A stretch of DNA of 64,000 nt from Aspidiotus rigidus (lineage: Eukaryota > Arthropoda > Insecta > Hemiptera > Diaspididae). Positions 6,407 to 61,694 of the stretch are shown here, piece after piece. Made by a program: the position numbers and the translations under genes. The DNA lies in assembly GCA_035079385.1 (NCBI GenBank), contig JAVHKY010000001.1:9262501-9326500 (forward strand), written 5' to 3'. Position 1 is the stretch's first letter. The number at the start of each line of letters is the position of its first letter. Below the pieces are notes generated by a model. The model did no database searches and was not told the DNA's origin. It worked only from the letters and a program-made list of their open reading frames with translations.

Positions 6407-6412
6407 TTTTTT

Positions 6413-6733: not shown

Positions 6734-6735
6734 CC

Positions 6736-7854: not shown

Positions 7855-8828
7855 TACGTTGACGATATCCTTTGTGTGTGGAATGGTACCGATGACACCT
7901 TGCAGCATTTCTTATCCACTTTCAATTCCTTCCACCCAGCTATGAGGTTCACTCTTGAAATTGGCAACGATTCTCTAAACTTCCTCGACCTCACACTCAC
8001 TCTGCGACCTTCACCTGGAACCAACCGCCTCTCTCTCTCGACTTCTCCATCTACAGGAAGAAATCTTTCACCGGAATATCCATCGCAAACGATTCTCTTC
8101 ACCCAAGCTAGCACAAACTGGCCGCGGTCAATGCTGCTATCCACAGGCTGCTCGTCCTCCCTCTTTCAGAAGAGGCACGCCTCATTGAGATTCAAACCAT
8201 TCAGGATATGGCTTCACAGAACGGCCTTGATATCGATGTTCCGCAAATGGTGCGTCGGAAAAACTTACGTCTGCTTCTTGCTGAATCACGTGATGATAAT
8301 TCTATTCAAAATTCACCCCCCCCCCCTCCTCTTCGTAAATGCTGGCTTCGCCTTCCCTACTTAGGGAAAGTTTCTAATACACTTGCTCGTGAACTGAAGA
8401 GATATAATTACTACGTCGGTTTTTATCCAGTCACAACCTTGAATCAGCTCATCCGCCTTAAAGACACCATCCCAGAAGAAGAAAAATCCAGTATATACAG
8501 ACTATCTTGTGGCGAATGTGCTGCCCAATATGTAGGTCAGACAGGTCGTTCCCTCAAAACTCGACTCGCCGAACATCGAACAGCGTACAACTCTAAGAAA
8601 CCTAAAGATTCTGCAATGGCGAAGCATTGCCTTGAAAAAGAACACGATTTTCAGAAAATATCCTCCAAACTCATTCATCAATGCACCAAAGGGAACTTCA
8701 TGAATCGTGCCGAGGAAATAGAAACCATATCAGCGTTCAATTCGATTGGTCCGAATCTTTTAAATGACCTCACCGCAACTTTCGTCACTCCTATTATTCG
8801 CCACGTATACAATTATCATGTTGATTAA
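7855..8828 (+). pseudogene. PLE-1 RT C-terminal part and GIY-YIG endonuclease, broken
   Basis: After the TGA at 7855 the same frame continues with YVDDILCVWNG (motif C) and FTLEIGNDSLNFLDLTL. A CT-repeat near 8028-8040 then shifts the frame. The new frame reads FSIYRKKSFTG and has a TAG stop at 8109-8111. It then continues without a break through VRRKNLR (near 8250), a poly-C tract at about 8317-8329, the KVSNTLAREL linker and the GIY-YIG nuclease. In the nuclease, SSIYRLSCGECAAQYVGQTG and the RLAEH segment are present. The nuclease domain ends at 8828 with a normal stop. The frame from 8208 to 8828 is open (206 codons). Nuclease residues look complete, so the domain may be chemically intact, although it has no route to translation. 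Confidence 0.82.
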
Positions 8829-8836
8829 TGCCTCTA

Positions 8837-9157
8837 TTCTTCCGCGACAGGAAATTTTATGATGATAGCGATTTCGGCTTTATTGATTTCCACCTTGTAT
8901 TTTTGTAGTTGCCTGATGATGGTCGTCGCGTTACGACTGAAACCGGTAGCGTTCTAACTCGCGTCTTGTTCTTGTGTTTTAATTATATTTTTGCTTTTAA
9001 TCCTTAATTTCTGTTTACTCCTCGATTGCTTTCGATTTTTCTCTATTTTCGATTTGTATCGTCTTCTAAATTGTCAATTCCTCGTTCTTTCCGATACCAA
9101 GCCGCGAGTTACAAATAAATCGTTACACGTCCATGTGTTTTCTTCCTTTTTAAATAA
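8837..9157 (+). repeat. PLE-1 right tail copy (pseudo-LTR)
   Basis: Sense-orientation partner of 6413-6733. It begins nine bases after the nuclease stop codon and ends in CCTTTTTAAATAA. It carries the hammerhead-like motif at 8906-8957. Confidence 0.85.
8906..8957 (+). ncRNA. hammerhead-ribozyme-like motif, PLE-1 tail
   Basis: CTGATGA (8913-8919) is followed by a stem GTCGT/ACGAC (8922-8926 and 8933-8937, six-base loop), GAAA (8939-8942), then ACCGGT (8942-8947) and A8948. In a type I hammerhead this gives stem III as the loop-free palindrome ACCGGU, with the expected cut after GUA. A palindromic stem III can only pair between two molecules, as described for minimal PLE hammerheads. One oddity is an extra U (8920) between the core and stem II. 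Stem I pairs weakly (GC with GC, then G-U). Confidence 0.62.
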
Positions 9158-9191
9158 CGATGACGAGTACCTTCGAAGGAAAAATCCTCTT
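9158..9191 (+). other. PLE-1 34-nt terminal extension
   Basis: This stretch lies between the end of the inverted repeat and the right target duplication, and has no partner at the left end. It includes the palindrome CCTTCGAAGG. Extensions of this size next to one pseudo-LTR are known for Penelope-like elements; PLE-2 has a 38-nt counterpart. Confidence 0.65.
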
Positions 9192-9205
9192 CGTCCTTTT
9201 GTCAG
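9192..9205. repeat. right target-site duplication of PLE-1 (14 bp)
   Basis: Identical to 6393-6406 (CGTCCTTTTGTCAG). Confidence 0.75.
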
Positions 9206-11780: not shown

Positions 11781-14637
11781 GTATGTACCTCTAATTTTAG
11801 TTTTTTTTTTTTTCAAGTAAATAAGCCTGACAGAATAAACGTAGCTCGAATAAGCGGGGACAGTAATAGACAATAATATTACTGCAGGTCTGGTCTTTGC
11901 ACCGAGACTTTCCAGAATAGACAGGTAGAATTAATAAGACAGTAACAAATTAAATTCATCACCTCACAATCATTTGATGCATATGGAATTTGAAGGTAAG
12001 AGGATCCTTCACCACAGGAACTTGATTGATGAGGAAGTGGTGAACACTCATACAGTCAAATGAAAAATCAGTTGTGTAATGAAAAATGTACGGTTTAGAT
12101 ATTTTAGATTATGCCTCACGCTTTGTAAGTATTCCTTCGAGTCATCACTTTCCTCTTCAATTTTTTTTGCTTCTCGTGTCAAATTGGTTTTAGTATTGAG
12201 AGTTGAAATCAAAATCTTGAAGAATCTGAAAGAAAAACGACATTTTTCAAAACCCTTGCTATACAATATATGATATAAGGGGGACTTGGATCATTTTTGC
12301 CAAGGTAACTTGGACCATTTTGACGTTAAGTCCCTTTACTAACAGATAATATGGCTCAAAAGTTGAAATTTTTCCAAGTCCTCTTCCTATCATATATTAT
12401 GGCGAGGGACTTGGAAAAATTTTACTGACCTATGACGTCATCAGATTGTGACGTCACAAGGTCAAAAGTCGGAATTGTTTCAGTTCCTTGCCATAATATA
12501 TGATGGGAGGGGAACTTGGAAAAAGTCCCCCACCTATCATTATATTATTGTTTGAAAATCGAAATATTTCTGAATTCAACCATTGAGCTATGTATAACAG
12601 GAGGAGGACTCGGTCCATTTTTGCCAATGATGTCGGACTTGGACCATTTTTATTTTGATCGGATATCACGTGGCGAACGGTGCATGATGTACGTCAAATT
12701 TTTCGACCCAACTTCCTGGTAAAATTTCGATCTTGGAGCTATAGGTGATAAGAAGGGGGGGGGGGGGTGGAAAAATTTTCGACCTCCAAACTATATATGA
12801 TAGGAGGGAGACTTCGAAAAAATTCGACCTCCGAGCATATGATAAGAGGAGGACTTGAATCGTTTTTGCCAATGATGTTAAACTTGGACCATTTTTGTTT
12901 TGGTTGGACATCAAACGACTCGGAATAACCCCCCATAGAACAGGTTCCCTGTTAGAATTCGAATATTGAGCTGTATCTGGTAGAGGAGAACTTGGAAAAA
13001 TATTATGTACTTTCGAGCTTAAACTCCCAAGGTGGTGAGGAATAAAGTTTAATCTTCATTTAGAAAAAGTATGAAGAAAGAAATCACCATAAAACAGGTT
13101 TCCTGTTTGCCTCGATTACTTATTGTCGGGTCCTGAAGTGTGAACAGGAAAGTAATGATTGGAGGCGTACTTGAGGAGGTAGCTAATGATCTAAAATACT
13201 AAAACGACCTGTAAATACATTCTACATTTTTATAAACTCTTAGCGTGCTCTCTTGAAGACATTCTTACAATCTTTGTGTTTGCATATTTAGGCACTCGAA
13301 GGGGTTATCTTTCAGGCTATATACACCGACCATCGAGCTATACATGATAGGAGGGCAACATGAAAAATTTTCAAGCGTGAGAGTGGTTGGAAAAACGTCC
13401 ACTGTCCAGCCAGCTGACAGAGCTCGGAACTCAGAAATTTTTCAAGTCCCCCTCCTATCATATATAGCTTGGCGGTCGGTGTATATAATTTGAAAGATAG
13501 CTCCTTCAAGTAACTAGATATGCAATGCTTGACTTAGCCCCTTCAATGAACTAGATATGCACGCATGAAACACCCTATGACTCAGAACTTCCTTTTAAGA
13601 TATTCTAAGTCCCCATCATATGAAGCTATGACGTCACACAACTTGATGTCATAGATCTGGTACGTGAACATTTTTCAGATCCATCGTGCCCCGTAAAACA
13701 GGTTCCCTGTCACCTCTTGTTCCACTCCGTTAAAGAACCCGTGAGTTTTTTTTCCTAAGGGGGCAAAACAAATGCCAGAAAATTTATTGGTCGGTTTTCC
13801 ATAAGTTCGCAAATTTTTTGTTTCACCCTAGCATTCATCGTTTTGTTTTGTTTTTTTTTTCTCTCATTTCGTCTGACCGGGAGCAAGTTTCTCCTTGCCC
13901 TCTCTACTCCAACACCCCTTGTCAGCTCATGAAAGTTCCTGAGCTTAGTACCAACAATCTACAATTAGTTGGCGGCTGTTAGGAATGCGTTTTCGTTTGC
14001 TCTGGCCATTTACAGACATGCATTGTTATTGAGCTTATTTTTCTCCATACATACTAGTGAGGAGTCCTAGGTTATCAATTAGCTCAGAATGTCCTTAAAC
14101 AGTATGTTGGACAAGTTTACTCTTAACCAGCATTTCTTAGCCTAATGTTAGGCTTCGCTTCAAGGTCACTTTAGTATAGTTCACTGCATAACCTAAACTG
14201 TATAATAAGCTCACTAGCTGACAAGACCTAGAATAGCTTAGTACTTGTAGGATATTAGAAGGCCGTACGGACTCCCAGACAGAAGTTTAACAGTGAAAAT
14301 TTTCCAAGTCCAATGTTGTATTTATATGGACGCTTGTACGAACGCAAATCTCGAAATGAGGGTTCAAAACAGCCATGGAACATTTAGAAAAAAAACTCAC
14401 TTCTCTTCGAAAAGTATGAATAAACAGATCAAAAATTGACCAGGACGGCCACAACAGGAGTATAGAAACTCATTTATCAATCATGGGTCTTATTTATAAT
14501 ATTACTTCACTCTTTTAATTGTACCTCCTTCAGTAAAAATAACTGTAACTTAAAAATCGACTCAACTCAAGTCAGCGAACTTTTAGAAGCCATAATACAT
14601 TCATGATTACTTTCTAATAGTTATCCTTTCTTCACAG
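11781..14637 (+). other. candidate intron 1 of the host gene
   Basis: It starts GTATGT and ends in TTTCTTCACAG. It contains the repeat cluster at 12276-13745 and a copy of the dispersed repeat near 14140-14250. No other coding stretch was found in it. Confidence 0.38.
12276..13745. repeat. degenerate repeat cluster with CCTATCATATATAGCT and GACTTGGAAAAA words
   Basis: Many imperfect copies, in both orientations, of a unit of about 60-90 nt. The words are GGACTTGGAAAAATTT, TCGACCTC, GAGCTATATATGATAGG and AGGAGGACTTGG. A second word, AACAGGTTTCCTGT, recurs at about 12941, 13096 and 13695, the last followed by a GTTAAAGAACCC block. Poly-G tracts occur inside (for example about 12755-12767). An inverted pair encloses 13311-13500. 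The same words are found at 16540-17010 and 48060-48600. Short frames here are by-products. The biological type is unknown; it may be a composite non-autonomous element. Confidence 0.55.
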
Positions 14638-16535: not shown

Positions 16536-16805
16536 GTCACAATCTAAATTTTCCAGGTTCGACTAAAGTACTATAAAGGGGAGGGGGGGGGGGTATGGCA
16601 ATACGCCATTTTAGCAGCAAAAAGAAGGCTCTCAAGCACGAACGCGTTCGCGCAGTGTCGCGGAATATTCGGCAGGGCCGGGCAACATCGGTCACGTTCG
16701 TTTTCTCGCGATGCTTTGCGATACGCATTCGTACATCGAACACTTCTTTTTGCTGCTAAAATGGCGTATTGCCATACCCCCCTCTATAGTACCCTAGTTC
16801 GACGT
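16536..16805. mobile_element. 0.27-kb foldback element
   Basis: Left arm (about 16555-16630) and right arm (about 16745-16805) are inverted copies: GTATGGCAATACGCCATTTT and AGCAGCAAAAAGAAG on the left recur inverted on the right, and the outer ends share GTACTATA. The left arm has a poly-G tract. The loop of about 115 nt holds small palindromes such as GAACGCGTTCGCG. It lies at the head of a second CCTATCATATA-type repeat cluster. Confidence 0.55.
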
Positions 16806-18653: not shown

Positions 18654-18668
18654 TTCGTACAATTTATT
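18654..18668. repeat. left target-site duplication of PLE-2 (15 bp)
   Basis: TTCGTACAATTTATT here matches 21890-21904 exactly and brackets the whole of PLE-2. Confidence 0.75.
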
Positions 18669-18934
18669 ATTAGAGTATAGTAAAGTCCACAGGAACGTAA
18701 CGTTTTTAATATGATATGGAATATAAATAAATAAAACGAAGATCAAATACGAATGATCAAGAATACGAGTCGATTTAAGTTTTGAAATTATGTTTTGCAT
18801 ACGATAATCGTAGTACAGGATCATGAACGAAAGAACGAAAAACGAAAAAATAATTTGGAAGTTAAATGAAGAAAGAAAACGAAAATTTGAATAGATAATG
18901 TTAAATTATAGTAGGAATCTTTTCCATATCATAG

Positions 18935-18985
18935 CGAACACGACCGGTTTCGACCTACAGGTTGAGGTCATCATCAGGTGAAATG
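18935..18985 (-). ncRNA. hammerhead-ribozyme-like motif, PLE-2 left arm
   Basis: Minus strand: CTGATGA (18977-18971), stem GACCT/AGGTC, GAAA (18951-18948), palindrome ACCGGT (18948-18943), then C. Same core as in the right arm. Confidence 0.62.
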
Positions 18986-19357
18986 ATGATAGAATCGGAT
19001 GAATGGGTTAACGAAGGTGGAGTGTAAGTCATTTAGAAAGTTGGAGCTTGCTGCAACTGCTGCTTTTATCGTCTCGTTTTCTTCTAATCTGTTTAGCAGA
19101 CGCCCTTCGCTGCACGAATGAATGAGTTCGCACTCAGCAGTCCATATGTCGTGTCCTGTGGTTCTGCAGTGATCCGCGAACGCCGATTTCTTCTGATTAT
19201 TTGGATGAATGGCGGAGAGGTGGTCATGAAATCTGAGGCGCAATTTTCGGCCGGTTTGACCTATGTAGAAAGCTTGGCATTCGCCACATGAGAGACGATA
19301 CACGCCCGACTTATCCATAGCTGAGATAGGGTCCTTCAGCGCTGTGAGGTTGGACAA
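18974..19357 (-). pseudogene. GIY-YIG endonuclease fragment inside the PLE-2 left arm
   Basis: An open frame of 127 codons encoding the C-terminal GIY-YIG domain: GVYRLSCGECQAFYIGQTGR, then a RLRFHDH segment, then a CRTTGHD segment and the family-typical C-terminus with NRLEENETI and FVNPFIRF. It is not a separate gene. It is the inverted partial copy of the PLE-2 tail, read on the other strand. It keeps TTA (Leu) where the sense copy at 21407 has TAA. Confidence 0.8.
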
Positions 19358-19394
19358 AGTGGATAGGGGGTAGAAGTCTGCCTTGTACCCATAA

Positions 19395-20384
19395 TTTGAA
19401 GCTCTTCAACTCTCCACCCTCCGTAAGCAAGCCAAAACACATCACAGCATCCGTAAGATAAAATTAAATAAACTTCGGTTACTCACTGAGAGGCAGTCAC
19501 AAGAACCTGGGAAAACCGGAAGCCCTCCTCCACGCTTCTCTACTCCGGATCCGCCTACGGCTTCGACCTTTGCAGCCCCCGTAGTCAACCTGTCAAAAAT
19601 CGAAATACCGCAAAGCGAACTACAACTTCTACAGAAAGGGAAAAAGTTTGCTCTTCCGCCAATAGATAAACAGAATACGCTCAAGAGTATCATAATTTCT
19701 GACTTAACCGCGGGCATAGGATCCGACCGACGTCTCTGCACAGATGAGATCGTGAATGTAATCGACAAAATGGCTCAATCTGGCCACCCTCCCTCTCGGG
19801 ACCTCCGCGCCTACAGATCACTACGCAAACGTCTCCACAATGGTAAACTCCGTCTTGTTAAAGCGGATAAAAGGGAAACAATTGTTATCCTCACCGAACA
19901 ACAATACAACTCAAGAATGCAGAATCTTCTGCTCTCCGCCAACGCTAAACCGCTTCGTTTCAATCTCAATAAATACAACAAAGACGTCAGGGATCGCATC
20001 AATCACTCTAAGCACGTAGTCTCAGGCCAGCGCGAATTCCTCCTCCAGATGAACTATTCTTTACCGCAGCTGTACGGGCAAGTCAAATTACATAAGGAAG
20101 GGTACCCCATGAGTCCTGTGGTTGCCTTTTATACCGACCCATCTTATAAACTCGCAAAATATCTATCTAGTTGGTTTCAACACGCTGTCGATTTCCAGCC
20201 TAAATACTCGGTCAAAAACTCCCGTCAACTCGCTCTGCTCCTACAAGAGAAGAAATTCCCCGAAGGATCTATTCTTGTGTCTATCGACGTGTCTTCAATG
20301 TTCACCAACATACCTGTTTCCAAAACCATCGACCTCATGGTCCCACACCTAGAAGAAAAACACTGGCCACCAGAAAACTGTTAG
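19395..20384 (+). pseudogene. PLE-2 reverse transcriptase, N-terminal half
   Basis: Open from the arm junction at 19395 without an initiator ATG. The leader reads ALQLSTLRKQAK, then the conserved AAPVVNLSKIEIP and LLQKGKKFALPP segments (near 19575-19665). The RT follows with VKADKRET, LYGQVKLHKEG, PVVAFYTDPSYKLAKYLSSW and motif A as VSIDVSSMFTNIP (near 20278-20310). A +1 frameshift near 20370 sends the frame into a stop at 20382-20384. Confidence 0.8.
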
Positions 20385-21530
20385 TGAATTTCGGGGACTA
20401 ATTAGTATCTGTCTCAAGAACAACTTATGCGTATTTCGTGAGAAAGTTTATAAATTTCCAGATGGGTTACCAATGGGGGGACCGCTTTCCACTATGGCTG
20501 CAAACGTCTTCATGGACCGCATGGAAACGGACATCCTCGAATATGAACAAGCCCCTAGCAATCTCCGTTTCTGGGCCAGATACATCGACGATATCTTGTG
20601 CGTGTGGCACGGCTCACCAAATGATCTACTGAAGTTTCTGGAAACCCTCAACAGTTACCACCCGTCCATAAAATTAACTTGCGAGATAGGCGGTGCAAAA
20701 ATAAATTATCTCGAGCTCACCATTTCGCTCACCGAAGATCGCAACATCCTCCGCACAAATTTCGATATCTATCGCAAGGACACCTTCACCGGCGTATCAA
20801 TACACGGGGATTCTCTTCATCCGCATACACACAAAATGGCAGCAATTCGGCTATCGATCGCTTGCTAAGGCTTCCTCTATCCCAATCAGCTCAGGAAGGT
20901 GAAATACAAATGATCAAAAATATCGCCAAAATCAATGGCCTCAACGTTGATATAGATATGCTGGTTCGGAGGAAATCTCTACGCACCCTTCTCGCCGAAA
21001 CTACTCCTCCCCCTCTTCCCAACAACAACTATGGGAAAAATGGATCCGTCTTCCTTATCTCGGGAAAACTTCCGACAAGCTCGCTGCTATCCTTCGCAAA
21101 TATGGGTACAAGGCAGGCTTCTACCCCCTATCCACTTTGTCCAACCTCATAGCGCTGAAGGACCCTATCTCTGCTATGGACAAGTCGGGCGTGTATCGTC
21201 TCTCATGTGGCGAATGCCAAGCTTTCTACATAGGTCAAACCGGCCGAAAATTGCGCCTCAGATTTCATGACCACCTCTCCGCCATTCATCCAAATAATCA
21301 GAAGAAATCAGCGTTCGCGGATCACTGCAGAACCACAGGACACAACATATGGACTGCTGAGTGCGAACTCATTCATTCGTGCAGCAAAGGGCGTCTGCTA
21401 AACAGATAAGAAGAAAACGAGACGATGAAAGCAGCAGTTGCAGCAAGCTCCAACTTTCTAAATGACTTACTTTCCACCTTCGTTAACCCATTCATCCGAT
21501 TCTATCATCATTTCTCTACTTCTTTCGCCT
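20385..21530 (+). pseudogene. PLE-2 RT catalytic part and GIY-YIG endonuclease
   Basis: After the frameshift near 20370 the frame carries LISICLKNNLCVF, FPDGLPMGGPL (motif B, 20458-20487) and ARYIDDILCVW (catalytic motif C, near 20580-20605). A second frameshift near 20845 leads to AIDRLLRLPLSQS and MLVRRKSLR (near 20960). A third near 21020-21030 leads to the nuclease. The nuclease has GVYRLSCGECQAFYIGQTGR (near 21190-21245) and is open to a TAA at 21407-21409. The left arm has TTA at this point, so this stop is a point mutation in the right copy. The remaining C-terminus continues in frame to about 21530. Confidence 0.8.
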
Positions 21531-21535
21531 CGACG

Positions 21536-21590
21536 TCATTACCTGATGATGACCTCAACCTGTAGGTCGAAACCGGTCGTGTTCGCTATG
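21536..21590 (+). ncRNA. hammerhead-ribozyme-like motif, PLE-2 tail
   Basis: CTGATGA (21543-21549), an extra T, stem GACCT/AGGTC with an eight-base loop, GAAA (21569-21572), palindrome ACCGGT (21572-21577), C21578, then GTGTT. Stem I can pair AC with GT next to the cleavage site. The stem II sequence differs from PLE-1 in both strands while pairing is kept, which supports a selected RNA fold. Confidence 0.65.
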
Positions 21591-21851
21591 ATATGGAAAA
21601 GATTCCTACTATAATTTAACATTATCTATTCAAATTTTCGTTTTCTTTTTTCATTTAATTTCCAAATTATTGTTTCGTTTTTCGTTCTTTCGTTCATGTT
21701 CCTGTACTACGATTATCGTATGCAAAACATAATTTCAAAATTTAAATCGACTCGTATTCTTGACCATTCGTATTTGATCTTCGTTTTATTTATTTATATT
21801 CCATATCATATTAAAAACTTTACGTTCCTGTGGACTTTACTATTCTCTAAT

Positions 21852-21889
21852 CATTATGGATCGTACCCATGAGGATACCGTTAAACTGA
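21852..21889 (+). other. PLE-2 38-nt terminal extension
   Basis: Unpaired sequence between the end of the inverted repeat (CTCTAAT at 21845-21851) and the right target duplication. It is on the same side of the element as the 34-nt extension of PLE-1. Confidence 0.65.
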
Positions 21890-21904
21890 TTCGTACAATT
21901 TATT
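21890..21904. repeat. right target-site duplication of PLE-2 (15 bp)
   Basis: Identical to 18654-18668. Confidence 0.75.
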
Positions 21905-23269
21905 TGGAAGTTTTTACGATCGTTCATCATGAAATCTTTCGTTTCATAATCCTGAAGTCTGATAAAAAGTACATTGTACGCGAACTGATTTCGTTTAGTC
22001 TCGCTAATAAATTAATTAAATTAATATACGATAGCATTTTGACCATATGAGTAATGGTTGGTACAAATTATTCATATTTTTATAATTTAATAGCAGGAAG
22101 GAAGATTATCTTCCGGCACAGACAGTATAAAACAACATATTGATAATTTTCGCTCTCGTTTCCTCGGTCGTGGGATAGGACCCGTTTATCAATCGAGGCC
22201 TGTCATTCAAGTTCAAGTAAATGAAAGTTATAAATTTCGCAAGCAAATTAATAGAGCGAGCGTTTCTGTAGCACCATTGTAAAAGTTTTCCAAATATTTA
22301 AATAGTGCGAGGATTGTTTCTGTCTGCCATGAAAAAAATTCCATAATTGTTCCAATACCATTCGTCGCCACACGATGTTGCACTCAGTCAGACGACCCGC
22401 GCAATTCAGAAGATCTAGAGTTAGTATCATACCACATAATCGATATTAACAAGTATTATCTTGTGATACAGGAACGATTGGTAAAACGTTGTTAAAAATT
22501 TGGTCTGGGGTAGAGGAGAAACGCGAGGTTCAGAAATTAACGTGATCACGAACACTTTAAGGAAACGATCAGACAGACTTTTCACATTTTCTGGGTCCTA
22601 TTTCAAGAACCAGAGAGCTTTCGGTAATGAGCTTCAAATTCTCGACCGGCTATTTCTCCTCAAATTCAAGCAATGCCAATTCGAGTAGGTATTTTACAAA
22701 ATCAAATTTTAAAAGCCGTCATTACTTTTGCCGAGGGAACATCCTCAGTAATGTCCACATTCGTCCATCTGTGCATATAGAAACCTATCTTCAGTACAGA
22801 TTTGGAAAAATATTTGGCTTGAATTTGTGTAAAAAAAAGTGTGACGTGATCAGAGGGAGTTGAGATAATTTGTACCAAAGAGAAGAGGTGGGAGATAATT
22901 GAACAGAAAGCGGGGATAACATCAGGGCTTAAAATTCTGATTGAAAGACGGGAAGGAGCCCGTGGTGTCATCAAAATGTAACTTCAATCTACTGTATCAG
23001 AATATAAAGTCATCAGACTGAGACTTTCGAGGGTCAGAATAGGGAACCTTTACATCAGTGCAGCTTCAAGAAACTTGTATAAACACACAGAATACCCACC
23101 TACTCGATATAAATCACCAAACTATTATCAAAAGAGGAGAATTTGTTCTCCTTGTTTGAAGAATTGGAATGATGAATCTAAGAAAAAAATGCCTTTGTAG
23201 CGCGAAAGCAAAACCAACTTTTTCTGTCTTATTTTCCTACACCTCTACTTCTTTTTTTCATTTTGTTCA
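21905..23269. other. no gene recognised
   Basis: Host DNA downstream of PLE-2. The short frames found here (all under 95 codons) have no motif I recognise and overlap each other on opposite strands. Confidence 0.45.
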
Positions 23270-23650
23270 TTACACTACACAACAAAAAAAAAAAAAATTG
23301 AAAACCACATGAACGGAATAATACGATTCTAGAAGTATTTTCGACGCTGATCACGATGCCGTTGTCCGTTTTTCAAGTTTTGGCTCGGTTTTCGAGAAAT
23401 GATCAAATCAAATTACCGCGATTCATTGCGACGCGCGGCGTATGTTACCCAGCTATCGAATTTCGCGAGAACGGGAACATACGCTGCGCGCCGCAACGAA
23501 TCGCGGGAATTGGATTTGATCATTTCTCGAAAACCGAGCCAAAACTTGAAAAACGGACAACGGCATCGTGATCAGCGTCAAAAATACTTCTAGAATCATA
23601 TTATTTCGTTCATGTGGTTTTCAATTTTTTTTTTTTGTTGTGTAGTGTTA
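23270..23650. mobile_element. CACTA-type MITE, near-complete foldback (375 bp) with TTA target duplication
   Basis: It starts CACTACACAACAAAAAA (23273) and ends with the inverted form, GTTGTGTAGTG (23647). TTA flanks both sides (23270-23272 and 23648-23650). The arms are nearly perfect for about 180 nt. They carry ATGATCAAATC and GACGCGCGGCGTATGTT-type blocks around a short loop at about 23445-23475. CACTA ends plus a 3-bp duplication are the hallmark of the CACTA (EnSpm) superfamily, although other superfamilies with CAC ends exist. Frames inside are palindrome by-products. Confidence 0.7.
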
Positions 23651-23666
23651 TTGGCAACATTATTAG

Positions 23667-31358: not shown

Positions 31359-33581
31359 TTGCGAAGATGGTATGGTAAATTTAATATTACGACTAGATTA
31401 AACCTTATGGTCCATTCGAGACTCTCCGGCATGCTCCCCCCCCCCCTTGAGTTTAATTACTTTACGCGGGACGTCAATGAAAAGTGTCGGAAGTTTGAGG
31501 CGAAGTTGAAGGAGAGGAAAAATGAGAAGCTGTCCTCCCTAATAACGGTTAATGAGGATGTGGTTGAGGAGGGGGTGAGTGACGGTGTTGTCGTTCATAA
31601 ATTCCACCCCCCCCCCTCATAAATAATAGTCAGGTAGTGTTCAATAGTGACAAAACATCCCTCCTTGAGAAAGGTTTGAAGTTCAGTATGCCTCCCCTCA
31701 AGAATGACGAAACCTTGGCCAATGTCGTTGCGGATCTTGCGGTCAAGATTGGTCCTGGTTTTAATACCCAGAAATTCTGTGCCGAATTAGTCCGTAATAA
31801 CCCCCTCCCTCGCATGAGTAATAAATTGGGAGGAGTGATTCAGGGTTTAAGGAGGAAGATGAAAGAGGGAGATTTTATCGTCACCAAGGCTGACAAGGGC
31901 AACGCTGTTGTAGTGATGGAGAGATCGGCCTATTCTTCTAAGGTCCATGAAGTCCTACAGCAGTGTGGTGCTAAAGAGAGTGAGGATTTCAGCTTTCCCA
32001 AGCACGTCAAAGAAATTAGGAGTGTCATCAACAGGAGTGAGGCTGTTATCAAAACTCCTGCTTTGAAAAAAGCCCTCCTTGTTCCTAACCCCACACCCCC
32101 CCCTCCTGTACGGGCTGCCTAAAGTGCATAAGAACAATACCCCGATGCGACCCGTTGTTTCTTTCGTCTCCCCTTTTACCTACCTCCTTGCCAAATTCCT
32201 TGACCGTTGGTTCAAAAATCGAATTGATTTTGAATCCCCTCATTCGGTCTCGAATTCGGCCTCTTTAACTGACGTCCTCAAGGATGTAAGTCTTCCCCCG
32301 GGAACGACCATCTGCTCGTTTGATGTCGTTGGTTTGTTCCCGAATATTCCTAAGGCTGCTACTATCCAGCGTATGGGTGAGCTACTCGTCAAAGCCAACA
32401 TTCCTCATAATGAGTTTCACGAATTCTTCGATCTTCTAAATACTTGCTGGTCCCCCAACTACTGTAAATTTGAAGGGAAATTTTTCGAGTTCCCTGACGA
32501 AGTAGGGATCCCCATTGGATCACCACTAGGCTCTCTCATATCCGAAATTTTTATGTCGAAGTTTGAACTTGACCTCTTTTCCTCGAACCAGGTGTTACTT
32601 AATCATATTCATTATTGGCACATGTACGTTGATGACGTTCTATGTACCTGGACTGGTCACCCAGATCTCCTTGGTGAATTTCTGAGGTATCTCAATTCTT
32701 GGTACCCTTCCATCAAATTTACGTTGGAAATAGGGGTATTTTCCATTAACTTTTTGGATTTATCGATCTCTATAATAGAAGGTATCCATAAGTTTGGAAT
32801 TTACAGGAAAGATACTACGACCGATGTTTTAGTCCACGGTGGTTCGTTCGGTCCTGTTGCTCACAAGATGGCTGCTTTTCATAGCCTAGTTCACAGACTG
32901 ACTCGTATTCCTTTGAGTCAGTCTGCCTTCAAGAAAGTGTTAATCACAATAAAACACCTGGCCAAAGTGAATGGGGTCAATGTCGATGTTGATGCCATGG
33001 TTCGGAGGAAAGTTACGAGGAGCCTCCTGGATTCTACCACCTCCCTCCCCCGAGACACGATCCGTGATCGCCGTTTGCGTTGGATCAGTCTCCCTTTCCT
33101 GGGGAAGTTCTCCCTGCAATTGGGTCGGGCCCTTCGCCCGTTTGGCTTCAGACCCGCGTTTTACAACCCTACCACAGTCAAGAGGTTGTTTGTGAGACTG
33201 AAGGACCCCATACCTGTTGATGAGAGGAGTGGTGTGTATAAGTTGGAGTGTGAGGATTGTGGAGGCTTTTATATTGGCGAGACCAGCCGCCAACTGAAAG
33301 TTAGAGTAGCTGAGCACCTGAAGTCTTGGAAGAAGGGACACTTGGGGGAGTCAGCTTTCGCCGATCACTTAATAAACAGTGGCCACAGCTTCCGTGAGGG
33401 ATCTGAAAAGCTCCTCCATAAGGAGAATTCCTACCGCAAGCGTATCGCCCTCGAGAATATAGAGATAATTCGTCATCTCAACACTGACGGTATCACCGTA
33501 CTCAAGTCGTACATTCGGGAAGATGGCCTGATCGAACTGGTTTATGACTCACACCGTGATTTCTCGTTTGGACGATCTTAA
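31359..33581 (+). pseudogene. PLE-3 RT plus GIY-YIG polyprotein with two frameshifts at C tracts
   Basis: Three segments: leader (31359-31622), second leader part and early RT (31637-32122), and RT catalytic core plus nuclease (32079-33581, 500 codons). The first shift is at a ten-C run (31607-31616) and the second at an eight-C run (32096-32103); the net shift is zero. Motifs: LLEKGLKFSMPP, then VTKADKGNAVVVM, LYGLPKVHKNN, PVVSFVSP, CSFDVVGLFPNIP (motif A, near 32310), GIPIGSPLGSLI (motif B, where many PLEs have PMG), MYVDDVLCTW (motif C, near 32625), MVRRKVTRSLL, and the nuclease SGVYKLECEDCGGFYIGETS with a RVAEH segment and a C-terminal HLNTDGITVLKS segment. All catalytic residues look present, making this the best-preserved PLE here. 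Confidence 0.85.
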
Positions 33582-33619
33582 TACCTCGTTCTTCTCTTGT
33601 GTTCGTCAGTTGCTTTCAT

Positions 33620-33680
33620 TTCAGGCTTGAAGATGGTTATTTAACCGAAAGCGCTCGTCGTCTTTTATTTTTCTGCGGTT
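33620..33680 (+). ncRNA. hammerhead-like motif with altered core, PLE-3 tail
   Basis: TTGAAGA (33627-33633) stands where CTGANGA is expected. It is followed by T, stem GGTT/AACC, GAAA (33647-33650), palindrome AGCGCT (33650-33655) and C. The layout equals the PLE-1 and PLE-2 motifs with AGCGCU as stem III, but core base C3 is changed to U, so activity is doubtful. After it come TTTATTTTTCTGCGGTTTGC words shared with the remnant at 51150-51230 and with 34760-34800. Confidence 0.45.
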
Positions 33681-34696
33681 TGCATGTTTTACTCCACGTC
33701 GGAGTATTCGTCTTTCACGTTTCACAAGAGGCTCTGATAAAACCCATTCGTAAAATGCTGGTTGTCGGATCATGTTGGAGTTTTTTTGTTTTTTTTTCCA
33801 TGTGGCCGTAAACTTTTTAACAACTTAAAACTGTCGCAAACTATTCGACTCGTCTGAAAATCAACATTACATTGAATTGCTCGAAGGCTAGCCGGTCCGG
33901 AATGCGCGAATGTGATGACTAATATGTTTCTTCCCTTTTATATGGACAAGTAGTCGATTTAGTCAGCGCATTACACTTACGAATACGTGATAATAATACA
34001 AATTCAACTGTTCAACCATACTCTAAATTGTATTACCGTACTTTTAATTTTCGTAAACATGTGTAGATAACTGCACGACGAGGAGAAAAATTATTTTGCT
34101 TCTCAAATATTTCACCTTGAAACGGAACGTGCATCACGGAAATACAACAAAGTGTTCGAGTCTCAATATTATTGTTGCCGAAAATTCGCAACAACGAAAT
34201 TAAACTACCTAACAATAATTTTTTTTGTTTTGATATACATCGATCAGAAGAACCTATAAAGTAATCCAACACACGTTGGGGAACGTTTCTTCCATATTAG
34301 TACAGCCTCTCGGCTTAATAACATGAAAAATTGTCTATTCAAAATATTAATAGCAGCCATTGCGCTTAAAACGATGAAACTCGTGCACATTTCGTCGAGC
34401 ATCCATTATGTTATAAAGTTGACCGTACCTATTTCCATAAAATTCGATTTCACGTCATTACTTTTGTACGAATATTTTGGAACATATGCTACACAAGAGA
34501 TTTCGAAAAGGAAATTACGTGTCGACTGAAATGGAGGACTCTCTTCTTTTCGAACACTACCACAAGTGGTACACCAGAAAGTACGGGGTATGAAGTGTTA
34601 TGTGGAGGAATGACGAAAAAAAAAAAAAAAAAAAAAAAAAACATGGAAAGGGAAATAGAGAGGTGTATATCAGCTGGGATGCAAGTTGAAAATGAG
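33681..34696. other. probable PLE-3 tail, then host DNA; no gene
   Basis: The first part is likely the remainder of the PLE-3 3' region. No matching inverted copy was found upstream of PLE-3, so its ends are undefined. A run of about 25 A is at 34615-34640. Confidence 0.4.
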
Positions 34697-34914
34697 CAAG
34701 TAAGAACTAGAATCAATTCTTTTTTTAATTTTACAGTTGTCCACTATGAAGAGGTATACACACGAAGAGTAAAAAAGACAAATACAAAAACCGCAATAAA
34801 ATTACACTATTGAGCGCTTTCGGCTGAACAGCCATTCTCGAGGTACAGAAAGCGGCAAGCTTTTTGTACTTGTCTTCTTTACTCTTCGTAAGTATACCTC
34901 TTCAAGTAAGAACT
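34697..34914 (-). mobile_element. mini-PLE A: 0.2-kb non-autonomous element with PLE-like ends
   Basis: Twelve-base direct repeats CAAGTAAGAACT bracket it (34697-34708 and 34903-34914). Inside: a 39-nt unpaired extension (34709-34747), the arm GAAGAGGTATA to CCGC (34748-34794), a hammerhead-like motif on the minus strand (34805-34845), and the inverted arm (34852-34903). The order is the same as at the 3' end of PLE-1 and PLE-2 read on the minus strand. No coding sequence. The arm word TGCGGTTTTTGTATTTG resembles the PLE-3 tail. Confidence 0.6.
34805..34845 (-). ncRNA. hammerhead-like motif, core degenerate, in mini-PLE A
   Basis: Minus strand: CGAGAA, then TGGCTG-TT-CAGCC, GAAA and palindrome AGCGCT (34818-34813), then C. 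The stem GGCTG/CAGCC is perfect, but the catalytic core does not read CTGANGA. Confidence 0.4.
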
Positions 34915-36841
34915 CTTGTAGGTTAGGTCGATCATTAACCTGTCATTAGTAGGTTTGTTTGCTTTGACATGCAGAAGTTTACCTATAGATGCGTATTCAA
35001 ATTTAGAATTAGAATCCATCTAACACATCGCTGCTGAAGAGTTTTACTCCTCGCGTATAGGATGTTATAGACAATAATATTCATTAAGGAATGATGTAAG
35101 TTTGTCCTACGTTTCAACTTACAAAATGCAAACATCCAAATATTTTAAATTGTGGTCCATTGAGAATGATACAATGACGAAATGAGCATAACAATAGTCA
35201 AAGAAACGCGTATATGATTTCATTTTTGGTAATCTCACAGTCCTTACGATTATTTGATGCTATCGCTCTCTCCAATCACTCTTCTGCTAATCTCCTCATA
35301 AATCTTATCCCCGCTCTCATCGCCACTTTCTATGAACTCAATTCTACGTCATAAGGTGTGCTGCAAAATCAGAAAGAAATAAATTCAAAAAACTTAGAAA
35401 AATCAATAACAAAATTATAAAAAAATGTTCTGGCCGAGTCGATTAATTAAAGATAATTTTCAATATCTTCTTATAGTAGCTCGATTAACCTGTCAGCCAA
35501 GATGAAGTAATTTTCAATAGCGAAAAAAGGCACAATGAAGACATCAACCAGCTTAAACTTCTTGCGAGTCACCAACATCCGTGAGGTCTTCAGCTTGGAC
35601 CTGGCTGTGAAGTCATCAAGTTAGTACCTCACTATTTCTTCTATTTCTTTTTTCTCTCGGGACTCACACATTTCCGGATTAGGTCGACGATTCCAAATCC
35701 GTCAACGGGAAGGAAGCTAAGCCTAGTTCAAGTCGAGTAAAGCCTCGTATTAGTATAGAGTACCACAGGCATATACTAGACCTGGTTCAAAGTTGGTATA
35801 GCTTAATTAAGCCTAGTTTAAAGCTGAAAAGAGTATCTCCACACCATATGTCTTTGAGTCTTTTATCAGTACATCGATCTTGACTGAATCAATATCTAAT
35901 ATGCGTGTATGTTAAGCTAATGAGCTTTTGGGGACCCACTCGCTCTGCTCGTTCGCCCTCACTTGGTTTTGTAACTATTCTGGGTCAAATCAAGGATTCT
36001 GGAGGGGGGGGGGGGGGCGAGGTCGAACTTTTGCGGATTTCCACAAGACTTGACCTCGAAAATTTCCAGTAAACAACTGGGGTGCTGGTAAAAACATTTC
36101 AAAGAGGGGACCTAGTCCCAAACTTGCGAATTTTCGATAGCGGATAAAGGTAAGATATCAAGTGTAAATATTCTTGGGACGTCATCATCATCCGTTCTGC
36201 TTGTGACGTCTTCACCCCCTGACGTCATTAGTTGGTGACGTCATCAGCCTCAAGATCATCAAGCTTTTGACGTCATCAACTTCATCTCTTTCGACATAAG
36301 CTTAGTATAATCTAGTACATTGAATGCTGAGCCTACCTTACGCCTAGTATAGTTTAATATCAGTACAGCGCAGCATAAGCGTATAGTTTAAAGCTCAGAT
36401 TCTTCAAGATTTTGATTCCAATTCTCGATACTAAAACGAATTCCATGCATGGTACAGGTTCCATGCATTCTTTGTTCAACTTCATTAAGGAAGCCGTCGT
36501 TTTCCAATCAGGTCGAGGGTTCGAGGATTCCAAATCCCTCAATGGGAAGAGGGCGGAGACAGAGCCTAGCATGTTAAGCTTAGTACAGCCTCCTACAAAC
36601 ACATTGCGTAGTATAAACATATGCTAGACCTAGTTTAAAGGTAATATTCAAGCAGAAATCCCGCACCTTTGGCGCGTACTACCAATATTTTATTTCAAAC
36701 TCATACCATAAATTTATTTCCAAATACATTAATACCATGTACCACTTGTACTGCGTACATTGAAGAAAAAAATATTACATCAAAGAAAGAAGAAATTATT
36801 CCAATCCGTATGGAAATCAGTCATCATCCATTTTACCTACT
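34915..36841. other. no gene; dispersed repeats
   Basis: The stretch 35245-35340 is similar to 17470-17590. 35735-35935, 36300-36400 and 36565-36650 carry words of the CTAGTATA/GCCTAGTTTAAAG repeat family. A poly-G tract lies at about 36003-36017. Around 36180-36290 the word GACGTCA(TC) occurs five or more times, a local cluster of CRE-like palindromes of unknown meaning. Confidence 0.4.
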
Positions 36842-39451: not shown

Positions 39452-39527
39452 GTACGTAAATTTCAGTTGTTTCGGTAGGCCTACGTATTTTTTTCATGAA
39501 TTGAACAACATGTCATTCTTCTCGCAG
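39452..39527 (+). other. hAT transposase intron (76 nt)
   Basis: GTACGT at 39452 and TTCTTCTCGCAG ending at 39527. Removal joins G with TC to make a Val codon and continues the exon 2 frame through SHEAALHRTTRNHL, which completes the His pattern of the finger. Confidence 0.65.
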
Positions 39528-40867
39528 TCTCGCACGAAGCAGCCTTACATCGTACAACTCGAAACCACTTGAAACAAACCACATTGCCTGTTGTAGCTCC
39601 GATGAATACATCATCTGAGGATTTTGGTCGAGAATTATGTGAAGCTTTCCTAAGTGTCAACATTCCGCTACACAAACTAGCTGATACAAAGGAGCGACCG
39701 AACAAGTTGAGACTCTGCTTGGAGAAGTATACTAAACTACGTGTACCATCTGAAAGCACTCTACGGAAGACTCACGTTCCTTCAATTTTTGATGCAACAA
39801 TGTGTAACTTACGAAATAAAATTGGGACCAACAATGTTTACATAATAGTGGATGAAAGTACCAACTCACGAGGAGAATACGTCGCTAATCTTCTCATTGG
39901 TACATTGCTACCGTTTGCGCCTGGAGATTCATACCTCATAGCCTCTAGACACTTAACAAAAACTAATGCCGACACAGTCACGGCTTTCGTTAATAATTCG
40001 CTTATTCAGTTCTATAGTGGAGAAGTATTTGCTGATCGCGTACTCCTTCTCGTCACAGATGCCGCCCCGTATATGGTCAAAGTGGGAAAAAATCTGAAGG
40101 TCATCTACCCCAACCTAATTTCCGTGACGTGTATTGCGCACGGCATACATCGCCTCTGCGAAAAAGTACGAGAGCTGTTTCCTGACATCAATAGCCTCGT
40201 AAGTTCATCAAGAAAAATCTTTTTAAAATGTCCTGCACGTATTGCAATTTACAAACAGTTCATGCATTGCGAACTGCCTCCCGATGTCGTCATAACGCGT
40301 TGGGGGACGTGGATCGAAGCGGCCGTTTTTTTTGCGACTCATTACGATGATTTCTCAATAGTAGTAGATGAATTACGCTCTGATGACTCTAAGTATATCG
40401 ACCCACTAAAAACTTTGATGAAGAAAAGTACACTTCGTGCAGATTTAGCATTTGTTAACACATACCTCTCCTTTCTATCCCAAGCACTAACAAAATTACA
40501 AACCAAAGGACTATCTTTGAACGACCAGTTAGCTGTAGTGGATGATGTTACATCTAAAATTCATTCAATTCCTGGTACACGAGGTCTTCATCTGAAACGT
40601 AAAATTGACGATATCTTTCAGAAAAATGAGGGACTTATTCAGCTACGACGATTGAATGATGCTGTCATTCAAGGTATTGGTACCAGCAGTGTGAAGAGTC
40701 CCGCGATTGGGAGCGCGTACACGTATGCTCCAATGATGCCCGTAGACGTAGAAAGGTCCTTCTCAGACTATAAATTGATTTTAACAGATAGAAGGACCGC
40801 TTTTACTGAAGAAAATTTAGAGAAACATATCATTGTAATGTTTAATTCGAGATATGACACATTATAG
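39528..40867 (+). CDS. hAT transposase, exon 2 (catalytic and dimerisation part)
   Basis: About 446 codons, open throughout, stop TAG at 40865. Features in order: FGRELCEAFLSVNIPLHKL; KLRVPSESTLRKTHVP; IIVDESTNSRGEYVANLL, holding the first catalytic Asp; LLLVTDAAPYMVKVG, holding the second; SVTCIAHGIHRLCEKVRELF, with the hAT CxxH signature; VITRWGTWIEAAVFF, the conserved RW motif; and at the C-terminus PVDVERSFSDYKLILTDRR with FTEENLEKHIIVMFNSR, the hAT-type C-terminal dimerisation region. It should act in the nucleus to cut and paste its own element. The closest family I recognise is the group related to the vertebrate protein CGGBP1. No disabling mutation was seen. Confidence 0.82.
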
Positions 40868-44430: not shown

Positions 44431-45558
44431 TTCAGACCGTCGATCTCAACTGTATTCTAAACGTTTTCATCAAAAAAAAAAAATTGCTGAGAGTTTGGCT
44501 ACTGGAATCGTGAGCTAGGACTTTTCAATTTCTCAAGAGTACTCTCGAACAGTAGCCACCAGGAAGTCAATCAAAATTCCAAATAGAAAATCCGTGACTT
44601 CTTCAATATTTTGCAAGAACTAATGAACGACATTTCCGGGAGCCTTGAGAAAATTTCTTTCCACTATATTCTTCTCAAAATTCAGCAATAGACGCCCTCA
44701 ATCATTATGAAATTCTCTGAAACATTTTTGTTTTTTCGGAAAAATACGTGGTTTTGAGATAGTTTTTCATGAGCCATTGGGACCCTTCGGGTTTCCGGGC
44801 CACTTTGTAAAATCGGGGACTCCCAAGTTTTTTCCTAGGTCGACACACACCTGGGGAAGACGACGGCCAGCGGAATGAAAAAGGTGCTTATGCTTATTAA
44901 CGGCTAAATTAAGGGAGGGGATGATTATGAAACAACGAAAAACGCATAAACTTCTACAGCTTGGAATATCTCTGAAACCACTTCACCACTGAAGTATACA
45001 ACTGATGCGTTTTAACAGGGAACTAGTTCTAGGGGGTGTTCAAAGAATTTGCCGTGCACCGTACGATATCCGGCAAAAACTGACCTACCCTGATACAGGA
45101 TTTGGACTTGGACTCAGAAGTGACTGAAATATCAAAATCAATTTGATCCATAGAACCGGTTTCCTGCGATCAACTTCGTTAAGGAAGCCATCGTTTTTCG
45201 TTTTTTCATAATTCTTCCCTCTCTTACAGTACGATTGTGCTTGAAAACCACCAGTCTTCCTTCCAACTGCTCTTTTCCCTTCCCTCATAACCACAAATAA
45301 TGATGTGTGTTTCAAGAGTTTTCTCTTCAAATTGGAATTTCAGAGAAAAATGACGGTCTTTCGACTGTACCAACAATTATCACCAAGTTTTCGCCATTAG
45401 GTTGATAAAATCTTATCAATCAAGAAATGTTACTGGACACCTATGAAACGAATATATTTATTGAGACCATAAGGTTTTGAAGTCGGAAAAGGTAGACTGT
45501 ATAATCAATCGAACGACATTGAAGTGACAAGAAAAGACGTACGCATAAGGGAAGGAGT
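44431..45558. other. no gene; host DNA after PLE-4
   Basis: An AACCGGTTTCCTGCGATCAACTTCGTTAAGG-type word of the composite repeat family lies near 45153-45190. No coding motif. Confidence 0.4.
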
Positions 45559-45786
45559 ATCGACCTATAAGTTTACCCATAAGAACGAGCAATAAAATTG
45601 TTATAAGAGATTAAAATCATTATCGCCTCGAAAAACACTTGCAAAATAATTCACCATGTATGCACAACGAGCATCGACCTATAAGTTTACCCATAAGAAC
45701 GAGTAATAAAATTGTTATAAAAGATTAAAATCATTATCGCCTCGAAAAACACTTGCAAAATAATTCACCATGTATGCACAACGATA
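45559..45786. repeat. tandem duplication, 114-bp unit, two copies
   Basis: Copies at 45559-45672 and 45673-45786, starting ATCGACCTATAAGTTTACCC and ending ATGCACAACGA, with only a few differences (for example CGAGC against CGAGT, AAGAG against AAAAG). The second copy runs directly into a PLE RT remnant, so a tandem duplication inside or at the edge of an element is likely. Confidence 0.7.
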
Positions 45787-51149: not shown

Positions 51150-51222
51150 GAAAGAGGAGTTCTCAAGAGAGTCAACCAGAAAACTTGCAAATACCGCAAG
51201 AATAAATACCAGAGAAGCCGCG

Positions 51223-51262
51223 AGCGCTTTCAGTTGATCAATCATCATCTAAGCGAAAAGGA
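51223..51262 (-). ncRNA. hammerhead-like motif, altered core
   Basis: Minus strand: TTAGATGA, then TGATTGATCAACT (weak stem), GAAA, AGCGCT, C. Core base U4 reads A, so activity is unlikely. A second, better-paired copy (TGGTTGATCAACC) ends at 51839-51844. Confidence 0.4.
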
Positions 51263-51356
51263 AAGCGACTGAAGCCAAAACGACTAAGACAGCGAACATT
51301 CAGAGAAATCAAGGATTTAAGCAAAACCATATCCTGATGATGTCACACTCTTCTAT

Positions 51357-51836
51357 AACCTAAGGATTGAACTCAGGATCACAACTGTGGGAATCATTCT
51401 CGTAAATTAACACAATTAACCCTTCGTCAGGAATGAGCCTGTCAAAAATAATGACGATGTTTTCGGTATTCAGATGGCGGTTAATTTCAATACGTGCCCG
51501 CGCGATACGTCTAAAAAACAAATTCACGCACTCTTCTCGAAACTACGACCACTACCTCAGGACAGCCCCCTACATACCACTTCTCTACCAGTGGGATAGA
51601 ATCTTTTAATTCAATAAACTTTTTACGGTGTTAGGGTTGTAGAACGCTGGTTGAAACTCACGAGGGCGGAGGACACAATTTAACTGCGAAGAGAACTTCC
51701 CCAGAAATGGGAGCCTGATCCATAGCAACCTATCACCAAGGAGCGATTCGCGGGGGACGGAAGTTCTCGTAATCTTCCTACGGACCATAAGATCAATGTC
51801 CAGGTTGACTTCATTTACTCTGGCTAGGTATTTCCG
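51357..51836 (-). pseudogene. PLE RT linker and GIY-YIG C-terminal remnant
   Basis: Minus strand: LARVNEVNLDIDLMVRRK, then WIRLPFLGKFSSQLN and FQPAFYNPNTVKSLLN (51788-51606) match the linker of PLE-3. Beyond a scrambled stretch where the nuclease core should be, IEINRHLNTENIVIIF and GLIVLIYENDSH (near 51480-51400) match the PLE-3 C-terminus. The catalytic nuclease core is missing or unreadable. Confidence 0.7.
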
Positions 51837-51876
51837 CTAGCGCTTTCGGTTGATCAACCATCATCTAAGCAAGAAG
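51836..51876 (-). ncRNA. hammerhead-like motif, altered core (second copy)
   Basis: Minus strand: TTAGATGA, stem GGTTG/CAACC region, GAAA, AGCGCT (51844-51839), A. Same altered core as the copy at 51223, so the change was present in the parent element. Confidence 0.4.
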
Positions 51877-51960
51877 GAATGCGACTGAACCCTCTTTGGT
51901 ATTTATTCTTGCGGTATTTGCAATTTTTCTGATTCAATCTCTCGAGTACTCTATCTTCAA

Positions 51961-56792: not shown

Positions 56793-57157
56793 TTACACTA
56801 CTCACCCAACAGCCTAAAAATCGCTGAGCTGAAATTATCAAATTGTAAATGAATTTTGAACGCTGAATTCAATGCCGTTCTCAGTTTTTCGATAGGACGT
56901 CTCAATTTTTCGTATTCGTATAAAATATTCACGTTTATTCGCAGCGCGTTGTTGCGGAACGTAACACAACTTCTCGATACCGAGAAGGAACGCTACGTTC
57001 CGGAACAACGCGCTGCGAATAAACGTGAATATTTCATACGAATACGAAAAAAAAACTGAGAACGGCATTGAATTCAGCATTCAAAATTCATTTAAAATTA
57101 GATAATTTTAGCTCAGCAATTTTCAAAAAGTGTGAATTTGTTGAGCACCTAGTGTTA
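56793..57157. mobile_element. CACTA-type MITE (359 bp) with TTA target duplication and an empty-site control
   Basis: It starts CACTACTCACCCAACA (56796) and ends GCACCTAGTG (57154), with TTA on both sides. The body is a foldback whose arms share GCTGAG-TAAATTATC, the AATTCAATGCCGTTCTCAGT block and a CGCAGCGCGTTGTT block. The paralogous right arm of the palindrome (around 60005-60020) has the uninterrupted text GGAGATTATTGTTGCAG, read on the minus strand, with a single TTA. This shows directly what was inserted. It is related in ends to the element at 23273-23647. Confidence 0.75.
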
Positions 57158-61537: not shown

Positions 61538-61655
61538 TTAGTTTTTCTTTCAAGTACACGTTCTTCCATACTACGGCTCATAATAATATTTGAAAATAAG
61601 ATTTTAATTTACTATCACCGTGATAATTAAATAAAATAAATTTCACTCGCTGATG

Positions 61656-61690: not shown

Positions 61691-61694
61691 GTAG

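Follow-up and report, generated by a model that had tools for sequence, protein, structure and literature searches.

Short One-Tailed Inserts with Inverted Arms and the Insertion of Penelope-Like Elements in Aspidiotus rigidus

What kind of event leaves a 0.2-kb piece of a Penelope-like element (PLE) that carries a target site duplication (TSD), a pair of inverted arms and a single tail? Such an insert, in which no protein of its own was seen, lies at 34709-34902 of a 64-kb stretch of the Aspidiotus rigidus genome (contig JAVHKY010000001.1, positions 9,262,501-9,326,500 of assembly GCA_035079385.1), hereafter the window. An initial annotation, made from the letters alone, took it for a non-autonomous mini-PLE comparable to miniature inverted-repeat transposable elements (MITEs) or retrozymes. 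We hold with considerable confidence that it stems from one insertion event of an autonomous PLE in which only the 5′ leader of the mRNA was copied, from both sides of the cut. Short inserts of this kind ("minis") are probably recurrent by-products of autonomous PLE activity, and a separate miniature element is improbable.

Layout of the insert and identity of its sense part

The insert is flanked on either side by the perfect 12-bp repeat CAAGTAAGAACT, as initially described (coordinates of all features are in Table 1). In a scan of 34600-35000 for direct repeats, which leaves runs of 1-3 base units unreported, no other family of 10 nt or longer came up, and the insert proved to be a single unit with no tandem repetition. 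The repeat alone is no proof of insertion, because 29 pairs of identical 12-mers that are not low-complexity are spaced 150-300 nt apart in the window; no other recurring 12-mer there has the exact spacing of the CAAGTAAGAACT pair. What raises the insert above chance is the constant tail end found across insertions in the genome with unrelated flanks.

The minus strand is the sense strand, on which the order is an inverted arm of 42-44 nt, a 6-nt joint, a sense part of 146 nt (hammerhead-like hairpin, arm and tail) and then the repeat. The inverted arm pair is as annotated, with arms of 44 nt that are 91% complementary, and the unpaired extension is in its place, with a length of 38 nt rather than 39. 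The sense-strand fold of the insert is strong (-76.2 kcal/mol, z -10.3), mostly because of the inverted arms. By eye, each arm has about 2 of its 44 sites altered relative to the family's common letters, the two arms at different positions, as expected if both arms were alike at insertion and decayed afterwards.

The hammerhead-like motif, which is on the minus strand (34843-34812), has the orientation first proposed, the extension following at its 3′ side; its stem-II hairpin, GAAA and AGCGCT palindrome are kept. Its core is degenerate: the place of the canonical CTGANGA is occupied by CTCGAGAA, also in the majority letters of 58 copies. No Rfam hammerhead family was found for the insert at the gathering score or at E<=5, a weak negative because the CTGATGA...GAAA motifs of PLE-1 and PLE-2, two other elements in the window, were likewise missed at the gathering score. 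Structure prediction with 58 leader sequences, which are very alike, gave no convincing fold or covariation. The tail words reported as common with PLE-3, a third element in the window, were not recovered, as at BLAST word size 7 the insert is linked to the PLE-3 end only via the hammerhead-like stretch (33633-33656, 83%).

The insert was compared with the whole 441-Mb assembly, and the best 40 of 1377 candidate places were scored. Among these 40, 34 span the query from 9-14 to 155-160; they thus begin at or near the first base after the duplication and stop short of the second arm. A single genomic copy, or similarity running past the 12-bp repeats, had been named as the outcome that would speak against mobility. 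The insert is not single-copy, and besides the window only 2 of the 40 places extend more than 4 nt into the repeat. The Penelope-type ends, target duplication, tail and mobile origin are borne out by many related copies in the genome.

Twenty fetched loci (with the duplicates L018 and L019 among them) were aligned with the window. The flanks downstream of the tail differ among these 21 copies, and in 11 of them a PLE reading frame comes to its end (...GLIELVYEDDSHFDDSLVQS and a stop) upstream of the 146-nt part, as in PLE-3. At L018 the 146 nt precede the frame instead: an ATG at core 110 (core 1 being the 5′ end of the 146-nt part) opens at least 110 codons, MDNRKIEKRIDSINGVDTPYLTFLFRKF..., with an N-terminus similar to PLE protein P0007, and the tail is in frame with it. 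The leader and its frame are seen directly in these copies. Because the frame ends upstream in 11 of 21 copies and follows downstream in L018, the 146 nt are a pseudo-long terminal repeat (pLTR) made up of the leader of an autonomous PLE mRNA and its first 12 codons, and the tail is coding sequence. The start codon was not evident from the N-termini of database PLE proteins alone; L018 revealed it. The coding sequence that long copies have beside the shared part aligns with PLE proteins over the reverse transcriptase (RT) and C-terminal parts, several of the best named matches being insect proteins, and we count the family as encoding both RT and GIY-YIG endonuclease. L018 (contig C68) and L019 (contig C41) are identical over core and upstream sequence, with PLE coding matches mirrored over 8-kb stretches, and represent either a recent duplication or an assembly haplotig.

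Ends, tails and target duplications among the copies

The ends were studied in 66 separate copies of the 146-nt part, the window insert included. This sample is only part of all copies and is biased toward those with at most 3 mismatches in core 31-72 (at least 119 matches, not all taken) and the best 40 of 1377; breakpoints past core 31 are hardly visible with such sampling. Upstream, 4 kb of sequence was available for 20 stretches, 1.5 kb for the core 31-72 matches and about 0.2 kb for later loci, so that inverted pieces far upstream are undercounted. The counts exclude L001-L008 (in the window or in stretches already fetched), 10 loci repeating fetched ones, L055 (the window itself), five loci whose core and upstream letters are identical to others (L019, L062, L075, L076 and L098) and 9 further passengers of the L060 type described below.

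Two main classes of 3′ ends are present, about 38 nt apart: the end lies at core 134-146, with the tail included, in 30 copies, at core 99-117 in another 30 and elsewhere in 6. The pattern is like that of an anole PLE with two RT start sites at a tail-length spacing (PMC11167929). By this likeness, the two classes may mark RT start sites in the PLE family of the window insert, and the tail lies between these two presumed sites.

The 5′ breakpoints form a peak. Within -160 to +30, 18 of 34 fall in -3 to +8, where 2.1 are expected by length (binomial p 2e-13); one of the 18, L038, has PLE coding immediately upstream and is an internal deletion, not a truncation. In most long copies the break falls between ...TTGGGTTCAGT and CGCTTTC or near it, and PLE-3 has TCAGTTGCTTTC at the equivalent place. 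TCAGT(T/C) is the arthropod initiator (Inr). The sequence at the break thus suggests a likely transcription start, with the mRNA 5′ end at TCAGT, where reverse transcription would stop if that is the end of the RNA. A pause caused by structure should leave the break on the near side of the hairpin, and the breakpoint is on its far side. A capped and a processed RNA end are alike compatible with the breakpoint and cannot be told apart.

An inverted piece lies within 420 nt of the core in 14 of the 66 copies, and the long copies L012, L022 and L032 have one further off. TSD-like flanks were found at the predicted boundaries of 8 of the 14 inverted copies, compared with 1 of 182 mismatched pairings. 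PLE duplications are variable, roughly 8-15 bp; that of the window insert is 12 bp, and the TSDs detected in other minis differ from it.

Exactly one tail is present in 16 of the 17 inverted inserts (the 14 close ones plus L012, L022 and L032), and none has two. The tail is on the direct side in the window insert, L009, L020, L027, L040 (partial), L077, L078, L012 and L022, and on the inverted side in L010, L045, L051 (partial), L057, L060, L068 and L032. When both ends were re-tested, these 16 inserts scored 29-72 on one side and 10-18 on the other, the maximum in control stretches being 22 (n=161). Under an even chance per end, at least 16 one-tailed inserts of 17 would occur with a probability of about 1.4e-4. 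The tail has the properties of a PLE tail, which is 30-40 nt long, optional, at one end and at the ORF (open reading frame) start.

In 16 of 17 cases the inverted piece has its outer end at core 100-113 or 134-147; in the exception, L078, the end is at 90 by alignment and further by eye. The inner ends are spread over core 3-113 (n=17), and in the window insert, L009, L010 and L022 the inner end at 64-67 is the edge of the hammerhead-like domain. This distribution bears on a fold-back origin, in which a cDNA or antisense strand would fold on its own 3′ end and copy itself into an inverted arm. Self-priming of this kind was hypothesised for rotifer PLEs in a 2013 paper (PMC3846280), and palindromic copies with the motif on both strands do exist (L020, L027, L077, L078 and mini-B, a second insert in the window), the first four of which are, taken alone, compatible with it. 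Fold-back, however, predicts a fixed inner and a free outer end, the opposite of what is seen, and it is disfavoured for the window insert, L009, L010, L045, L060, L068 and L022, in which the inverted piece reaches only to core 64-104, well away from the joint side; we regard it as very improbable.

In L022 the same arm is joined to a point inside RT coding. An arm encoded as the 5′ end of the element is ruled out by this joint, which indicates that the arm was made at insertion.

In a full PLE with the order inverted pLTR, pLTR, ORF and pLTR, recombination of the direct pLTRs could also have removed the ORF and left a remnant like a solo LTR with the same final layout. Full structures of this kind are described in the rotifer Adineta vaga (PMC3846280). 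Among the 30 tail-bearing copies, however, the ORF follows only in L018 (and its duplicate L019), which starts upstream of the breakpoint peak, and parents of the right form were not seen in the sample. Such secondary deletion is very unlikely.

Descent of the ORF-less inverted copies

If the minis were a non-autonomous family comparable to a MITE or retrozyme, with transcription and mobilisation in trans but no protein, they should descend from one another and have a joint and structure in common. A fixed tail end, TSD-like flanks and several ORF-less copies of like layout would fit such a family, as would the pairing of the window insert with L009 on a tree, and pLTR sequences of A. vaga were concluded to be sufficient for integration in trans (PMC3846280). 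The initial description of a family defined by its ends alone is nevertheless not supported, since 42 of the 66 copies run on upstream into PLE sequence, and in the 14 ORF-less copies with a close inverted arm the joints differ, the duplications differ where found and the tail side varies. On a tree of core 10-100 (92 columns), these 14 are scattered, requiring 13 changes against a mean of 12.9 with shuffled labels. Among the best 40 of 1377 matches, the best after the window itself reaches 245 bits, compared with 394, and has a different joint; the judgement on shared joints rests on the 40 scored matches and the 66 copies. No mini lineage is present in the sample of 66, where descent from one another with a common joint and structure was not found, and the chance that the minis are such a family is small.

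The only many-copy mini seen, the L060 type, is found at 13 places, has a different joint and is a passenger inside another amplified repeat, as its flanks are common beyond both ends. That repeat is at least 411 bp long, and its 13 stretches are 95-100% identical including flanks, apart from L084 with only 70% in the last 60 nt. L060 is at G000:C13:12370534-12370944, and the like places are L062, L070, L071, L073-L076, L084, L085, L090, L092 and L095, several of them on contig C52; the mini there belongs to the PLE family of the window insert and has the tail at its inverted side.

Two known classes of small elements do not fit. A MITE has terminal inverted repeats at both ends and a DNA transposon as its relative; here one end lies 38 nt past the arm and the long copies encode RT. 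Metazoan retrozymes are non-coding and hammerhead-related, of about 170-400 nt, with PLEs suggested as their movers (PMC7229834). The window insert is likewise small, non-coding and hammerhead-related, but retrozymes are tandem repeats with mostly canonical type I hammerheads, whereas the insert consists of one unit that has inverted arms and whose hammerhead-like core is non-canonical.

Proposed insertion from two start sites

The following course of events would account for the window insert. The PLE mRNA would begin at the initiator-like TCAGT, followed by the hammerhead-like hairpin, the arm and the start codon. The PLE protein would begin reverse transcription inside this RNA at two sites about 38 nt apart, one just ahead of the start codon and one 12 codons into the frame. 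After a staggered target cut, the 3′ end of one strand would prime at the in-frame site, which yields the tail, and be copied on to the mRNA 5′ end, and the 3′ end of the other strand would prime ahead of the start codon and be extended by 44 nt, as far as the edge of the hammerhead-like domain. Joining of both cDNAs would follow, and gap filling would make the 12-bp duplication. The copies themselves show the leader, its frame, the two main 3′ end classes, the breakpoint peak, the one-tail pattern, the TSD-like flanks and the lack of a mini lineage in the sample, whereas we infer that the breakpoint marks the transcription start and the 3′ end classes the RT start sites, as well as the order of the cDNAs and how they were joined. 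Priming by each of the two strands on RNA would explain why the outer ends of inverted pieces are fixed and the inner ends free. Perhaps a single RNA molecule serves both primings, since none of the 17 inserts examined is double-tailed. Whether insertion in this PLE clade is usually two-primed, the strands using adjacent internal start sites, one each, with minis bounded by the transcription start as its fossils, is evenly poised.

Several observations weigh against this account. By the scoring rule, no TSD was found in L020, L040, L045, L051, L078 and L083, although L078 has one by eye. L083 is also tailless at both ends (scores 17 and 12), and the tails of L040 and L051 are partial. Among copies with neither an upstream PLE 3′ untranslated region nor a detected inverted piece, 0 of 10 have a TSD, and thus some copies form in another way; L038 is one of these ten, and so is L080, whose joint holds about 15 nt of inverted core, below threshold. 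Furthermore, L011, L018, L025 and L028 contain inverted pieces of PLE coding sequence that could not be followed at the outer end to a start site, so that priming is probably not confined to the start sites, and L028 resembles an ordinary 5′ inversion without duplication. Lastly, the tree is poorly resolved (2 of 62 inner branches starred), and its pairing of the window insert with L009 (95/75) is accompanied by common substitutions; one self-copying event of a mini may lie behind that pair.

Table 1. Parts of the 0.2-kb insert and related elements in the 64-kb window
Feature	Position	Strand	Basis or remark
Target site duplication, left copy, 12 bp	34697-34708		Perfect repeat of 34903-34914
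Tail, 38 nt, with first 12 codons of PLE reading frame	34709-34746	-	Constant 3′ end in copies; L018 frame
Start codon position, here GTG	34744-34742	-	Within tail
Arm, direct copy (core 65-108), PLE mRNA leader between hammerhead-like domain and start codon	34747-34790	-	
Hammerhead-like motif CTCGAGAATGGCTGTTCAGCCGAAAGCGCTC, core not canonical	34812-34843	-	Sequence; majority letters of 58 copies agree
5′ end of direct copy (core 1), at recurrent breakpoint of long copies beside TCAGT	34854	-	Probable mRNA 5′ end
Joint of two presumed cDNAs, 6 nt unassigned filler GCTTGC (sense strand)	34855-34860		Sequence
Inverted arm (core 108 to 65), without tail, ascribed to upstream start site	34861-34904	+	
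Target site duplication, right copy	34903-34914		Perfect repeat of 34697-34708
PLE-1 with inverted 5′ copy	6393-9205	+	14-bp TSD CGTCCTTTTGTCAG, one tail 9158-9191 (cgATGACGAGTACC...)
PLE-2 with inverted 5′ copy	18654-21904	+	15-bp TSD TTCGTACAATTTATT, one tail 21855-21889 (tATGGATCGTACC...)
PLE-3, RT/endonuclease coding like that of the mini's family	31407-33656	+	TCAGTTGCTTTC at 33606 precedes hammerhead-like motif
Mini-B, second ORF-less inverted insert, other PLE family	61538-61785	-	TSD TTAGTTTTTCTT at 61538-61549/61774-61785

The window has PLE coding regions at about 7.0-8.8, 19.4-21.4, 31.4-33.6 and 43.2-44.2 kb. Among five pieces of these relatives searched against Pfam, PLE-3 matches RVT_1 above the cut-off, the GIY-YIG match of PLE-2 (21.7 bits) is just below its cut-off of 22.6, and three pieces have no match. 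By eye, PLE-1, PLE-2 and mini-B each have one tail, with an ATG in its first bases and no stop after it, and a 12-15 bp duplication; the tail of mini-B is on one side and opens with the ATG. Places related to mini-B occur in the genome. Six palindromic ones (C34:2745219, C4:21152217, C2:13873369, C56:3943370, C20:11355069 and C34:4758379) match from query 9-14 on one strand and only from 43-51 on the other, by hit coordinates, and the other places among these matches are less complete. This suggests, on sequence coordinates, that the one-tail pattern may extend to the mini-B family.

At 51157-51951 there is an inverted PLE remnant; hammerhead-like motifs lie close to each of its ends (51222, 51839), and it may have an 11-bp duplication, one position of which is mismatched (51137/51974). 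Elsewhere in the window, a 455-codon open frame at 39500-40867 resembles, by eye, a hAT-type transposase or a domesticated relative; near-palindromic stretches at 23269-23651, 56817-57123, 13280-13525, 16588-16782 and 63514-63605 are possibly MITE-like or foldback elements; and a 114-bp unit at 45552-45784 is present in two tandem copies that are 96% identical.

Inverted 5′ pieces are known from L1, where they arise by twin priming: both target strands prime on the element RNA, which leaves an inverted 5′ piece. In the insertion proposed here, unlike in L1, both primers would be at defined start sites at the same RNA end, and the same stretch would be copied twice. Among PLEs, Pen2a and others of A. 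vaga contain an endonuclease and have inverted pLTRs, and solo pLTRs and one-sided tails are described (PMC3846280); the window insert differs in that there is no ORF and the arm is only 44 nt, stopping before the hammerhead-like motif. The anole PLE mentioned above, Poseidon of Anolis carolinensis (PAc), cuts and extends both target strands and has two adjacent internal RT start sites near the ORF start, the tail being the sequence between them (PMC11167929). Besides these start sites, with the tail between, and the extension of both strands, the likeness includes a hammerhead (here hammerhead-like) where the ORF starts. The PAc study of 2024, however, is mainly in-vitro biochemistry and left later insertion steps to be validated, whereas the evidence here consists of genomic scars in another host, with a hammerhead core that is degenerate in most of the copies examined. 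ORF-less, start-bounded inverted PLE inserts were not found described in the open-licence literature searched.

Scars of roughly 0.2 kb, in which the outer end is fixed, the inner end is free and a single tail is present, can separate models of PLE insertion from genome sequence, and they shed light on how PLEs, which are poorly understood, insert. For annotators there is a caution as well: the presence of inverted arms on short PLE pieces does not by itself make them a non-autonomous family. If two-primed insertion is indeed usual in this clade, PLE mRNA starts and the joining step would be mappable from genome sequence alone.
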